Shown one piece after another: positions 42,756 to 54,412 of a stretch of 64,000 bases of DNA. The notes beneath the pieces are model-generated. The model was given only the letters and a program-made list of their open reading frames with translations. It was not told the DNA's origin and did no database searches. This DNA is from Leptospiraceae bacterium (lineage in GTDB: Bacteria; Spirochaetota; Leptospiria; Turneriellales; Turneriellaceae). Within the stretch, counting starts at the first letter, position 1, and every line of letters begins with the position of its first letter. The position numbers were made by a program, and so were the translations under genes. The DNA is taken from assembly GCA_025055765.1 (NCBI GenBank), contig JANWWS010000012.1, positions 1 to 64,000 of the forward strand. Reading direction: 5' to 3'.

Positions 42756-43034
42756 TTACCTACACTGATAGGCGTCCGCTGTAGCGGTGTAGCGAAGGCC
42801 TAGTTTTTGATGTTGATGGGGTATTAGAGTTAATGTCATCTTGTTGGCGCCAAGTTTACGCGCTTCTGCCTTGGCTAGTTCTTCTGCCTGGGAGCGGTGA
42901 TAGGTCTGCACCGCATTGCCTACTCGAACCGTAGCGAGCTTCTGACAATTTTCTGGAATCTTGCCGCCCTCGATAACCTCAACAGCCGCAAGCAGGGAAA
43001 CAAAGGTAAAAAAGGAAAGAAAGAATTTCTTCAT
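42756..43034 (-). CDS. Small secreted DUF4156/RcsF-like protein, paralogue 1
   Basis: A 92-residue protein with a cleavable signal (MKKFFLSFFTFVSLLAAV). The mature domain has Cys30 in ENCQKLATVRVGN, a helix with AEARKLGANKMTLTL and a final Cys91 in ADAYQC. This pattern (Cys near the start, helix with A...GAN, closing AYxC) is that of the DUF4156/RcsF superfamily of small envelope proteins. It aligns without gaps to the 92-residue protein at 45555-45833. It follows the two-component genes downstream by 87 bases. Ribosome binding site AGGAGAC precedes the ATG. A sensor-accessory role is inference. Confidence 0.72.
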   Translation of the reverse strand: MKKFFLSFFTFVSLLAAVEVIEGGKIPENCQKLATVRVGNAVQTYHRSQAEELAKAEARKLGANKMTLTLIPHQHQKLGLRYTATADAYQCR

Positions 43035-43121
43035 AAAAGTCTCCTGTTGTGAATTTTATGTGTATTTCTTATTTACAGACAAGCGAGAGACTACGGGGAA
43101 AAATCCGTATAAATACGGAGA

Positions 43122-43793
43122 CTAATCATCCATTTCTTCTAGGGAAACAATGCCATGGCGCAAAGCAAAGGTAATCAGCTCTTGGATGTTTTTTAAGTCT
43201 AGTTTTTGCATGACATTGGCTCTGTGGGATTCTACTGTGCGCACACTTATCCCTAGTTCATCGGCAATTTCTCGATTGGTATGCCCAAGGGCAGCCAAGC
43301 GCAATATCTCTCTCTCCCTCCTTGTCAAAAGCTCTATGGCAAGCTCACTGCGCTCCTGCCCCTGGCCTAAAGCTAAGGCCTCTGTGATCTTGGAAGAATA
43401 TGACTTCCCCCCTTGCAAAACCGTATTTATGGTAAATTTAAGATGGTCGAAGATGTCTTCTTTAAGCACATAACCCTCCACACCCATTTGCACGGCCTTT
43501 TCAAAAATCTGCCTTTCTTTGTGGATCGTAAGAACAATGAACTTTGTATCTGGCAATGTCTTTTTTATTTCACGAATTGCATCTAGTCCATTCATTTTAG
43601 GCATGGATAGATCACACAAAATAAGATCAGGTTTAAGCCTCAAAGCCTCCTCCACAAGCTTTTTCCCGTCGTGGCATTCCGAGACCACTTCAAGTTTAGG
43701 GTCCTCACTTAAAAGGGCTCGCATACCCCTAAGTAAAATAGGGTGATCATCTGCTAAAATTACTTTATACTTGGAGTTTTTTGGGGATGACAA
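43122..43793 (-). CDS. NarL/LuxR-family response regulator
   Basis: A receiver plus LuxR-type helix-turn-helix regulator. The receiver has the acidic pair in VILADDHPILLRGM, the phosphorylatable Asp in LILCDLSMPKMNG, Thr in FIVLTIHKE and Lys in YVLKEDIF. The DNA-binding half has LTRREREILRLAALGHTNREIA and SVRTVESHRANVMQKL (separate segments). I favour a TTG start at 43793, with ACGGAGG six bases upstream; a GTG at 43811 is the other option. Either start overlaps the kinase gene, so the pair is translationally coupled. Confidence 0.88.
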   Translation of the reverse strand: MSSPKNSKYKVILADDHPILLRGMRALLSEDPKLEVVSECHDGKKLVEEALRLKPDLILCDLSMPKMNGLDAIREIKKTLPDTKFIVLTIHKERQIFEKAVQMGVEGYVLKEDIFDHLKFTINTVLQGGKSYSSKITEALALGQGQERSELAIELLTRREREILRLAALGHTNREIADELGISVRTVESHRANVMQKLDLKNIQELITFALRHGIVSLEEMDD

Positions 43794-45420
43794 GCCCAAC
43801 CTCCGTTCCACCCTGAGATCTTTTACGAATGTGAAATTTTGCTCCTATAAGGTTGGCTCTTTCTTGCATAATGAAAAAACCAAGTCCCTTCTCTTGGGCA
43901 AATTTTGCCTCAACCCCTTTGCCGTCGTCACGCACCATCACAACAACCGAGCGTGCTTTTTCTTTTAAGAGCACTTCTATATGGTTCGCCTCAGAATGCT
44001 TTACGGCATTTTGCAAGGCCTCTTGTACAATACGGTAAGCATGAAGCTTGCTCGCCTCATCCATAAGGATTTCGCTTTTAACCTCAGAGCGAAAGTGAAA
44101 AGTCATTTTTGTCTTTAAGTTCTGGTAGGACCCTACCAATTTTTCAAGAGCACCTGCAAGATCAAGATGGGATATCCCATAAGGGGAGAGAATTTGGCTA
44201 AACTTGCGAGCCATTTCAATGGTTTCATCAAATTGGCGCAAGACTTCTTGTTTCTCTTCTTTGCTTGGTCCTTTTTTGCGGACACGAGCTAGAAGCGACT
44301 GTACGGTGAGTTTAAGACTAACGAGATTGGAGGCGAGCACATCATGGATTTCTCGAGATATGACCTGCCTTTCCTGTTCTTGAATATCCAAAATTCGGCG
44401 GCTAAGTTCCATGATTTTTTGATGGGCATGCACGAGGCTCGTAAGGTCATAGAGACTTATGACAACATATTCCTTCCTGTGGGCAGTGCTCTTTTGCCCC
44501 ATTAACATTAGGGGGATGGTCTTGCCCCCTCTTCGTCTGCCCTGCACTTGCGCATGAAAGCTCCTTTGACCCTTATTTTTTCTTAAGAAGGCATAAAAAG
44601 AACGGTTTTGCTCATACTCGGGAGGGATAAGGAGGGCGATATTCTTGCCGAAAATTTCATTAAGCTTATAACCAAAAATTTTCTCCCCCGACGGGTTAAT
44701 AGTGCCAATTTTTTCTTGTTCATCCAAAATAAGTAGTACATCCTGGGCTGTCTGGACAATAAGCTGGCTTAGCTTTTGCTGCTCCTCAAGTTTAGCAAGT
44801 AATGGCTCTGTTAGTCTTATAACTAGGGTAGCTGCTCCCATTAAAATTACAATAGCTAGGGTTAGGGTCCAAAGCCCCCTAATGATGTAAGGCCGGCGAA
44901 TTACATCGAGCCTCATTTCAATTACAAGAGCAATATCGAGCAGACCAATATAATCATAGGCCGCTAGGACTTCCTGACCAGCGAGGTTATGGAAGATACC
45001 TGCCCCCCGTTTGCGCTCCAAGGCATATTTAATAGAGAGTGGGACATAACGGCTTTCTGGTTCTATGACAATAGAATTTCTCACTCCAGCTTCATAGCGC
45101 ATGAAGATTTCGGCGGCTTGGCCGTGGCGACGCGCAAATAAAATGGTGTGTTGGCTCTTTACTTCGCTTTCACCTAAGAAAGCATCCTCGATTTGCCTCA
45201 GGGTTGCATGGCTTGCTTTTTCCTTATCGCGGAAGGTATTGCGGTCAAAGCGAGCCACGGCTTCAATGAGAGACTTAGTACTATCCACGTGAAAGAGCAC
45301 AAGATTTAGTTTTTCATTTATGCTCGCGGTATATTGTTGATAAGTAGTTAACACCCCTATGGCAAGTGAAGTAAATATAAGGGTACCAACAAGATAAAAA
45401 AGCCTCTTTTTTTCGCTCAT
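43765..45420 (-). CDS. Membrane sensor histidine kinase with PAS domain (NarX type)
   Basis: A 551-residue kinase. Membrane helices at about 8-27 and 183-205 flank an extracytoplasmic domain of about 150 residues that is alpha/beta and unlike known sensor folds I recognise (possibly Cache-like). A PAS domain follows (about 225-340, LILDEQEKIGTINPSGEKIFGY), then a HisKA_3 dimerisation domain with phospho-His in ISREIHDVLASNL and a HATPase with ALQNAVKHSEAN and VRDDGKGV. Partner of the NarL-type regulator downstream. Two small secreted paralogues flank the pair and could be its signal inputs (inference). Confidence 0.88.
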   Translation of the reverse strand: MSEKKRLFYLVGTLIFTSLAIGVLTTYQQYTASINEKLNLVLFHVDSTKSLIEAVARFDRNTFRDKEKASHATLRQIEDAFLGESEVKSQHTILFARRHGQAAEIFMRYEAGVRNSIVIEPESRYVPLSIKYALERKRGAGIFHNLAGQEVLAAYDYIGLLDIALVIEMRLDVIRRPYIIRGLWTLTLAIVILMGAATLVIRLTEPLLAKLEEQQKLSQLIVQTAQDVLLILDEQEKIGTINPSGEKIFGYKLNEIFGKNIALLIPPEYEQNRSFYAFLRKNKGQRSFHAQVQGRRRGGKTIPLMLMGQKSTAHRKEYVVISLYDLTSLVHAHQKIMELSRRILDIQEQERQVISREIHDVLASNLVSLKLTVQSLLARVRKKGPSKEEKQEVLRQFDETIEMARKFSQILSPYGISHLDLAGALEKLVGSYQNLKTKMTFHFRSEVKSEILMDEASKLHAYRIVQEALQNAVKHSEANHIEVLLKEKARSVVVMVRDDGKGVEAKFAQEKGLGFFIMQERANLIGAKFHIRKRSQGGTEVGLVIPKKLQV

Positions 45421-45554
45421 TGAGGCAAAACTCCGTGTAAATACTTAAGAAAAACAGCGTTTTCCCTGATGACAAACGCAAAACTTGGGGCTATATATAA
45501 AAGCGTGCAAGCCACAAAAAGGCTTGCTTGAAAAATTCGCAAAGGAGGGAAAAT

Positions 45555-45833
45555 ATGAAAACAATTAAGCTTTTGGCGGCAACAATCACTCTCATGGGAC
45601 TTTCGGCAGCCGGTATAGCTGTGCCCAAAGATAGCGCGAACTGTGTCAAAATAGCCGACCTCCAAGTTGGGAACCGGCTCAACACAGCCGCTTTCGAAAT
45701 TGTGCGCTCCGAAATCCTGAAAGAGGCCCAGCAAATACCCGCCGACAAGGTTGTTGTCAAACTCATAAGGCATGAGCATGGCAAGTTGAAAACCCGCTAC
45801 TATGCCAAAGCCCATGCTCTCAAGTGCGAATAA
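45555..45833 (+). CDS. Small secreted DUF4156/RcsF-like protein, paralogue 2
   Basis: A 92-residue exported protein, signal MKTIKLLAATITLMGLSAAG. It shares with the protein at 42756-43034 the same length, Cys30 (SANCVKIADLQVGN), Cys91 (ALKC), the LI.H.H.KL..RY core and the helix before it. The start at ATG 45555 has a very strong AAAGGAGGG seven bases upstream, so high expression is likely. It is divergent from the sensor kinase gene, with 134 bases between, room for a regulated promoter. An intrinsic terminator follows directly. Confidence 0.75.
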   Translation: MKTIKLLAATITLMGLSAAGIAVPKDSANCVKIADLQVGNRLNTAAFEIVRSEILKEAQQIPADKVVVKLIRHEHGKLKTRYYAKAHALKCE

Positions 45834-45840
45834 AAGAGGC

Positions 45841-45870
45841 GAGGAGTGGGCATGAGGCCCACTTCTCTTT
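45841..45870 (+). terminator. Intrinsic terminator after the small secreted protein gene
   Basis: AGTGGGC (45845-45851) and GCCCACT (45857-45863) form a perfect 7-base stem with loop ATGAG. GAG/CTC extends it (45841-45843 with 45865-45867), and TTT follows. It lies eight bases after the plus-strand stop and touches the stop of the convergent porin gene, so it may serve both directions. Confidence 0.75.
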
Positions 45871-47038
45871 AATATACTCCAATAAAGGCGATGAGGCCAG
45901 AAATATTATCCTTTTTGGTCTCGGAGCCTACCCCGTAAAAATCCCGATCGGCTAAATCATATTTCACTTCCGGGCGTATTAGAAAGTGACCATCATACAA
46001 GGAAACCGTGGTGGTGAGCGTGTGTGCCTGTACTTTTACTGGGCCAAGCCCCCGCACACCTTTAAGGTCATCATAGTACTCGCCTCGGTAGCTAAAGGTA
46101 AGATTGTCGCTAGCCGCAAAGCTCAGATAAAAAGCCGCACCACCCCAGTTTTGGCGCTCGTTCGCGGAACGGGAATCCAGCTGACCTGCGACTAGATTTA
46201 ATCCCACCTTGAGAGCCGTCGTGATATCATACTGAAAGACGATGTCCCCAATATGCTGGATACCATTACCCTCATCACCCCCGGCGTAATTCAAGATTAA
46301 AGTGATTGGGCTTAGCACAGGGAAGGAAATTTGACCAATGGCCGTTTTTTCCCGATTATTGTCCACATAGCTATCCCAGCCATTGACAATTCCAGCCATG
46401 AGGCCAACTTTGCCACCAATATCATAATCAAGCTTTGCACCAGTATGATAAAAGGGTCCATAACCAAAAAGATAGCTTAGCATGTAGTTGGCGTTTTGGT
46501 AGGTCTCAACAACTTCGTAGCCAATATGAGTACCAAACTGGCCAACGGTGAGCCTTGCATTGGGCAGGACGTTTGCCGAAATATAGGCTTGCTTAATAAC
46601 CGTACTCGTGGTGGAAAACTTCTCTTCATAATCTAGATTACCATCATTGTTGAGGTCTACGGCCACCAACTTCACGTTATTAAAGTTGGTCTGCTCTGCA
46701 TTAGGGCCATGTACCAGGTCAGCAACGACCTGCCAGTCATTATTTCCTATCTGGAACTTAGTTTGGATAAGCCCCAGGTTGAATTGTTCGCTCCCACTTT
46801 CAAAAATACGCCCAGTCTTTGCCTCGCCGCCGGCCCATGCTGGCCTGAAATCCTTTTTGGCCGCCGTATGGTAGGCGTAGTAGGCATCGACATAGCCCCC
46901 CACCTGCAGATAGACATTATTGTCCGAAACAGGGACCTTGATTTGCTTTAAGAGCAAACCTTCTCTAACCTCTTCTTCCTCGGCATAGAGAAATGACGCG
47001 GCGGAAATAACCGCAAAAATCATGATTCTTCGCACCAT
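45869..47038 (-). CDS. Porin-like outer membrane beta-barrel protein
   Basis: A 389-residue exported protein with signal MVRRIMIFAVISAASFLYA. The mature part consists of alternating amphipathic strands and ends in Val-Tyr after an aromatic-rich strand (SGLIAFIGVY), typical of barrels recognised by BamA. Segments such as YLQVGGYVDAYYAY and ARLTVGQFGTHIGYEVVETY match the family of putative beta-barrel porins (BBP2-like) that take up small solutes. An acidic DLNNDGNLDYEE insertion may bind calcium. AGGAG precedes the ATG. The substrate is unknown. Confidence 0.75.
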   Translation of the reverse strand: MVRRIMIFAVISAASFLYAEEEEVREGLLLKQIKVPVSDNNVYLQVGGYVDAYYAYHTAAKKDFRPAWAGGEAKTGRIFESGSEQFNLGLIQTKFQIGNNDWQVVADLVHGPNAEQTNFNNVKLVAVDLNNDGNLDYEEKFSTTSTVIKQAYISANVLPNARLTVGQFGTHIGYEVVETYQNANYMLSYLFGYGPFYHTGAKLDYDIGGKVGLMAGIVNGWDSYVDNNREKTAIGQISFPVLSPITLILNYAGGDEGNGIQHIGDIVFQYDITTALKVGLNLVAGQLDSRSANERQNWGGAAFYLSFAASDNLTFSYRGEYYDDLKGVRGLGPVKVQAHTLTTTVSLYDGHFLIRPEVKYDLADRDFYGVGSETKKDNISGLIAFIGVY

Positions 47039-53668: not shown

Positions 53669-54025
53669 TCATTTTTTTTGTTGGCGGGCTTTTTGTTGTT
53701 GAATCATGTTATATACTTTTTCAATAGACACACGCATAAAATTCTCTACATATTGGAAACCTTTCTTGTCCATGGGATAAAAATGATCGAGGTTTTTGGA
53801 GTCTTGGTAGCGCCGGTACGCATCATTGACCTGCTTCATAAAATCTTCCGGAGTCATGTTGATAGCTTGTATTTTGTCCTCCAGCTCACGGTAAAGTCTC
53901 TCAAATCCGAGCACATGTTCTACCGAAAAAACACGGAAAAAGGTGTTGAGATAGGCCTCCGAAACGGGACGTCCATTGTTAATTTTGAGAGGTGTTTTCG
54001 GATCTATATGGATTTCCTTCGCCAT
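53669..54025 (-). CDS. Conserved-looking hypothetical protein, helical
   Basis: A 118-residue soluble protein starting MAKEIHIDPKTPLK. It is mainly helical, with aromatic-rich helices (AYLNTFFRVFSVEHVLGFERL, FMRVSIEKVYNMIQQQ) and a basic Gln/Lys tail. No known domain is recognised. The frame continues upstream to a TTG at 54091, but those codons lack family-like character and overlap the divergent lipoprotein start; ATG 54025 or 54037 is more likely. It lies 37 bases upstream of mutL on the same strand and may be co-transcribed. Confidence 0.6.
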   Translation of the reverse strand: MAKEIHIDPKTPLKINNGRPVSEAYLNTFFRVFSVEHVLGFERLYRELEDKIQAINMTPEDFMKQVNDAYRRYQDSKNLDHFYPMDKKGFQYVENFMRVSIEKVYNMIQQQKARQQKK

Positions 54026-54412
54026 AGCTTTCTTCATATATTTCGACGAATACCTTATGGTCTTGCAATCATTTTTTTTCTTGCTTGCCAAAGTATCGAT
54101 CGCCGCGACCTAGTCAACCCATTACCCGAAAAGCGACGCAGCTACGAAGAAATTGAAATAAGTTACGATATCCCCCAAGAAAAGCATGTGCTCTTAAGTG
54201 AAGTAATCCTTTCCTACAATACAGGATACGAGCGGGAGAGGATTTTTCAAAAATTAAAGAAAATGGCAGCCGAAAGCGGGGCAGATGGTATTTATATTTT
54301 ACCTTTGCGCCAAAAAACACATGATATGCTGATTTACGGGGGTATGCCGAATTACCGTTTGCGAGAGGAGCGCTATGAATTAAAGGCCTTCTTTTACCGA
54401 CTCATTCCTTAA
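54008..54412 (+). CDS. Small lipoprotein, possibly RcsF/DUF4156-related
   Basis: A 134-residue protein beginning MDFLRHSFLHIFRR, then a hydrophobic stretch ending in FFLAC, a good lipobox (about Cys27). The mature part has EEIEISYDIPQEKHVLLSE, VILSYNTGYERER and a helix KKMAAESGADGIYILPL, similar to the AxxxGAxxI signature of the DUF4156/RcsF superfamily. The longer frame back to 53678 is antisense to the neighbouring gene and not credible. It overlaps the start of that divergent gene by 18 bases and shares TTAA stop bases with purM. Confidence 0.55.
   Translation: MDFLRHSFLHIFRRIPYGLAIIFFLACQSIDRRDLVNPLPEKRRSYEEIEISYDIPQEKHVLLSEVILSYNTGYERERIFQKLKKMAAESGADGIYILPLRQKTHDMLIYGGMPNYRLREERYELKAFFYRLIP

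Follow-up and report, generated by a model that had tools for sequence, protein, structure and literature searches.

Predicted control of small secreted RcsF-fold proteins by a NarL-type two-component system in spirochaetes related to Leptospira

In the CpxRA-CpxP system a small periplasmic protein is encoded divergently from the two-component genes and is itself one of their targets (PMC6737893). The DUF1471 proteins (YhcN/BhsA/McbA) are small, secreted and stress-linked, share an RcsF-like fold and occur as several paralogues per genome, and the mutual likeness of the RcsF, YbjQ, DUF1471 and DUF74 folds has been described before (PMC4092069). Here we analyzed a locus in a 64,000-nucleotide contig stretch of a Leptospiraceae bacterium (the window; GCA_025055765.1, JANWWS010000012.1, positions 1 to 64,000), whose genome is 2.5 Mb and 99% complete. 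As with CpxRA-CpxP, a small periplasmic protein is encoded divergently from two-component genes and appears to be their target. CpxP is helical, whereas the proteins described here have a different fold, come as several paralogues and would belong to a near-private rather than a broad regulon, and the regulator is NarL-type and the sensor Cache-like. A literature search found no paper on this combination of kinase, regulator and small proteins.

The locus and its relatives

The two small proteins are called S1 and S2, and their homologues S proteins. The genes and domains of the locus are as follows.

42756–43034, minus strand: S1, a 92-residue secreted protein of predicted RcsF/DUF4156-type fold with Cys30 and Cys91 (open frame, predicted fold, BLASTP).
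43122–43811, minus strand: NarL-type response regulator, Response_reg and GerE (domain matches, phosphorylation residues).
43765–45420, minus strand: sensor kinase with Cache-like sensor, PAS, HisKA_3 and HATPase domains (domain matches).
44806–45420, minus strand: N-terminal part of the kinase, comprising the Cache-like sensor and two transmembrane helices (predicted structure).
45555–45833, plus strand: S2, the S1 paralogue, transcribed away from the kinase gene (open frame, homology to S1).
45869–47038, minus strand: BBP2 (OmpL-like) porin, a conserved neighbour lacking the operator described below (gene neighbourhood).

A first-pass annotation had described S1 and S2 as gap-free paralogues of equal length with the same cysteine positions and a shared core. 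Both frames indeed encode 92 residues, with Cys30 and Cys91 in register and the common core LI[RP]H.H.KL..RY. By the identical Cys-to-Cys spacing, residues 30-91 are gap-free as described, but alignment programs placed gaps in the signal peptide, and BLASTP also in the core. The proteins are homologous (35% identity, E 3e-13, pairwise BLASTP), and a search of the window's own genome with S2 recovered S1 at 2e-8. The S2 proteins of genomes G000 and G004 formed one fully supported group in a phylogenetic tree, by which S1 and S2 are old paralogues. Invariant columns of the S-family alignment were Cys30, K77 and Cys91. The gene layout was also as first described, with S1 in line with the kinase and regulator genes and S2 divergent behind a strong ribosome binding site (AAAGGAGG). 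A plasmid search with S1 as query gave no match.

The flanked genes had been called a NarX/NarL-type system. This holds for the NarQ/NarX-like HisKA_3 kinase core, with HATPase_c and a conserved phospho-acceptor histidine (H359), and for the NarL-type regulator, whose receiver and GerE domains were matched and whose phosphorylation residues D67 and K117 are conserved. It does not hold for the sensor, which was modelled as a long N-terminal helix and a PAS-like sheet between two membrane helices (pLDDT 88), with TlpB, DctB and Tlp3 among its structure matches. The sensor is thus predicted to be a single Cache-like domain, unlike that of NarX. The end of the kinase gene and the start of the regulator gene, a GTG, share 47 nt (window 43765-43811; 14-44 nt in relatives), which suggests that translation is coupled or that the true start lies further on.

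Distribution was examined in 13 genomes of one small family of Leptospira-related spirochaetes; some of the relatives are Leptospiraceae/Spirochaetota MAGs. An S profile search retrieved 18 genes from 9 of the 13, at one to three copies per genome. Phylum-wide (393 genomes) the profile had only one other clear match, a DUF4156-like lipoprotein in G104 that lies outside the family and whose gene has no operator. A full-length sensor kinase was present exactly once in eight of the nine S-containing genomes and absent from all four genomes without S (Fisher p = 0.002, G001 left out). In G001, which is 54% complete, the two-component system was not found, though S genes and operators were present. 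All eight kinase-containing genomes thus carried S, and in seven of them S adjoined the kinase-regulator pair, either after the regulator, in line before the kinase, or divergently. In G003 the three S genes are not next to the two-component system, in whose vicinity no operator was seen. The full four-gene order of the window recurred in one other genome (L031), with variant arrangements elsewhere. A lack of co-occurrence with the kinase in other genomes, named earlier as a refuting outcome, was not what we observed.

The porin gene adjoining S2 belongs to the conserved neighbourhood, although the first-pass annotation left it out of its four-gene module. G004 shares the five-gene order with the window (porin, S2, kinase, regulator, S1). 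The locus is bordered by a BBP2 porin in G000, G004, G005, G011 and G012, and such a gene was a neighbour at loci L031, L032, L037, L040 and L039, with a second BBP2-type gene after the regulator in L032 and L039. Leave-one-genome-out scoring found no operator at the tested porin promoters, and the porin was rejected as a member of the regulon. A transposase-like gene lies between porin and kinase in G005 (L037, 3614-4435) and splits the neighbourhood there.

Fold and family of the S proteins

AlphaFold modelled S as a beta-alpha-beta-beta core with pLDDT >90. The top Foldseek matches were YdgH (DUF1471; the best), YbjQ, RcsF and DUF74, with probabilities of 0.96-0.99; at E values of 0.02-0.15 these matches indicate resemblance of fold and are not proof of descent. 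RcsF structures 9biy_B and 2y1b matched with probabilities of 0.99 and 0.98, respectively (E 0.09-0.15, TM 0.58-0.64). On the basis of these models S would have an RcsF-like fold, and like RcsF it is secreted and has a conserved cysteine pair.

The likeness to RcsF stops at the fold. None of 17 S proteins matched the RcsF profile PF16358 at E≤1, whereas an RcsF sequence matched at 8.6e-52. A direct sequence link was rejected, as an hhalign comparison of the S profile with this RcsF sequence also gave a probability of just 2%. Where the signal peptide ends, the S alignment lacks the lipobox cysteine that marks an outer-membrane lipoprotein like RcsF, and it has two conserved cysteines where RcsF has a four-cysteine, two-disulfide network. 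S proteins are therefore not RcsF, and they look like targets rather than sensors.

Among Pfam and curated families the best match was DUF4156 (PF13698; best E 1.5e-4). Residues 17-91 of S1 aligned to positions 9-90 of the 90-position profile, reaching the C-terminal cysteine, but at 22.5 bits the match stays below the curated cut-off of 28.9 bits. Nine of 17 S members matched PF13698 at E≤1, all below the cut-off, and S1 was the top match when the whole genome of the window was searched for DUF4156. By sequence, DUF4156 is the nearest family of S, below its cut-off. The initial assignment to a "DUF4156/RcsF superfamily" can accordingly be kept for the fold (Foldseek 0.98-0.99), for which a structure unlike RcsF had been named as the refuting outcome, and for DUF4156 as best family; it fails for RcsF membership and for the DUF4156 threshold. 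S resembles DUF1471 in being small, secreted and RcsF-like in predicted fold with several paralogues. Unlike S, DUF1471 proteins lack the cysteines, and a search of the S profile against PDB sequences gave weak DUF1471-type matches only. A viral structure library yielded one match, to an unnamed protein (6e-4). Elsewhere in the window, a lipoprotein-like frame (53678-54412) had no Pfam match, and its C-terminal part (LSEV...AAESGADGIYIL) by eye resembles the RcsF/DUF4156 beta-alpha-beta pattern.

Operator and promoters of the S genes

Comparing intergenic regions by eye, we noticed a CTCCGTA-N4-TACGGAG-like repeat upstream of S genes. As CTCMGTA-N4-TACKGAG, this 18-bp inverted repeat was found 68-163 bp upstream of 17/17 testable S genes, both linked and unlinked to the kinase; the S promoter of G008 was left out because its contig ends there. 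This operator common to the S genes is new here. In the window the elements are:

43103–43120, no strand assigned: operator 1, CTCCGTATTTATACGGAT on the minus strand, just past the regulator stop codon and 68 bp ahead of S1.
45431–45448, no strand assigned: operator 2, CTCCGTGTAAATACTTAA, between the divergent genes, 10 bp ahead of the kinase start codon and 106 bp ahead of S2; weaker, 15.8 bits.
43053–43082, minus strand: predicted S1 core promoter, TTGTCT-18-TAAAAT (consensus match only).
45467–45497, plus strand: predicted S2 core promoter, TGATGACA-17-TATATA (operator-promoter spacing conserved in relatives).

The 17 S promoters could be aligned over 80 bp without gaps, in the order operator, 18 bp, GATGNC (a -35-like box), 17 bp and a GC-TATAAT-like -10 box. 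In most of them the operator is centred at about -65 from the predicted transcription start.

The motif was derived from S promoters, which, where related, also share ancestry; independent evidence therefore comes from the held-out and genome-wide tests alone. In leave-one-genome-out tests, linked S promoters and the site-holding intergenic regions before kinase genes gave p = 0.0025-0.015. A matrix trained on linked sites only placed a site no more than 200 bp from each of the nine held-out unlinked S genes (p = 0.0005-0.0075 against shuffles). A genome-wide scan of the 13 genomes, done by pattern rather than weight matrix and allowing ≤1 mismatch, hit nine places, of which eight were upstream of S. 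Two of these eight lay in promoters that had not been used for writing the pattern, and one of the two exposed a hitherto unrecognised S gene. The ninth, inside a groEL-like coding region (L125, G000:C37:55585-55602), is probably a chance occurrence. The raw number of sites was no higher than for a reversed control pattern, and the specificity lies in their position. No site with ≤1 mismatch was found in the four genomes that lack both S and the two-component system. Across 48 genomes of the class an extended operator-promoter pattern was hit seven times, each time before S, and its control pattern was not hit. Besides that of S2 in the window, weak sites (12-14 bits or less) were those of G003, G010 and one copy in G005.

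We also considered whether the repeat forms an RNA hairpin or terminator instead of a protein-binding site. In the window it directly follows the regulator stop codon, is succeeded by a T-run and appears on a terminator scan list. No covariation was detected, however (paired cells 73% vs 72% in shuffles), and the repeat sits upstream of a predicted promoter at fixed spacing, including before S genes where no gene ends. This reading is highly improbable and was rejected.

Which protein binds the operator is judged by association. We assign the motif to the adjacent regulator on the grounds of co-occurrence, adjacency and its inverted-repeat form, such repeats being usual sites of NarL-type regulators. 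In detail the site differs from the 7-2-7 arrangement of NarL, having half-sites with TAC at their inner edges and a 4-bp spacer. That some other regulator binds it, with the two-component system and S as mere neighbours, is quite unlikely: NarL-type paralogues exist in the family genomes and G001 has S and operators but no two-component system was found there, yet operator, S and two-component system are present together or absent together in the 12 informative genomes. In five genomes, moreover, a copy of the operator is found 10-52 bp ahead of the kinase gene, a position that suggests autoregulation.

The predicted circuit and its sensor

Gene content, co-occurrence, the predicted fold and the operator-promoter module are computed; binding by the adjacent regulator, and activation as its effect, we infer. 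Activation is proposed over repression because the operator is centred at -65. The membrane kinase would sense through its own single Cache-like extracytoplasmic domain and phosphorylate the NarL-type regulator, which would bind CTCMGTA-N4-TACKGAG, centred some 65 bp ahead of the predicted start of transcription, and activate the genes of the small periplasmic RcsF/DUF1471/DUF4156-fold S proteins. A higher periplasmic level of S would be the main output, since the operator is almost confined to S genes in the examined genomes, and in several genomes regulator bound before the kinase gene would add autoregulation. We regard such a self-contained circuit as probable. By analogy with the logic of CpxP in CpxRA, S may protect the envelope and/or feed back on the sensor. 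The fuller version, a closed circuit whose regulon is in essence a single periplasmic RcsF-fold family of one to three copies per genome that tunes or feeds the Cache-like sensor, is possible but doubtful.

It had been left open whether the small proteins were signal inputs or outputs. As inputs, S proteins would touch the kinase sensor in an RcsF-like manner, perhaps together with the BBP2 porin, and report envelope damage, with the shared promoter as positive feedback. The predicted fold and the conserved adjacency of the porin gene would fit, RcsF is known to signal jointly with outer-membrane proteins (PMC9907809), and genomes lacking the kinase lack S. Yet S has neither the lipobox nor the four-cysteine network of RcsF, the porin lacks the operator, and the kinase has a Cache-like sensor of its own that is widespread without S, so that inputs gain no positive support. 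We consider this role unlikely. Outputs are favoured, by the shared operator and promoter before every testable S gene, and the near-private regulon makes a dedicated output of the predicted system well supported at the level of sequence.

If this is correct, a single short promoter fused to a reporter would show what the signal is, and that in turn would hint at the role of such RcsF-fold proteins. The analysis also ties a DUF4156/RcsF-fold family to a dedicated regulator. For a two-component system of little-studied spirochaetes, it supplies a specific, testable operator and predicts a nearly complete regulon.

The sensor itself extends far beyond the family. It had no match to a Pfam sensor domain. 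A search of genome contigs with the kinase alone as query found nothing, but a search with the sensor alignment retrieved relatives (L070-L116) in kinases, a diguanylate cyclase and hybrid receptors. No S gene was present in their retrieved flanks. The Cache-like domain, found in receptors across many phyla, among them those of Desulfobacterota, Gammaproteobacteria, Chloroflexi and Nitrospinia, is a candidate new sensor family.
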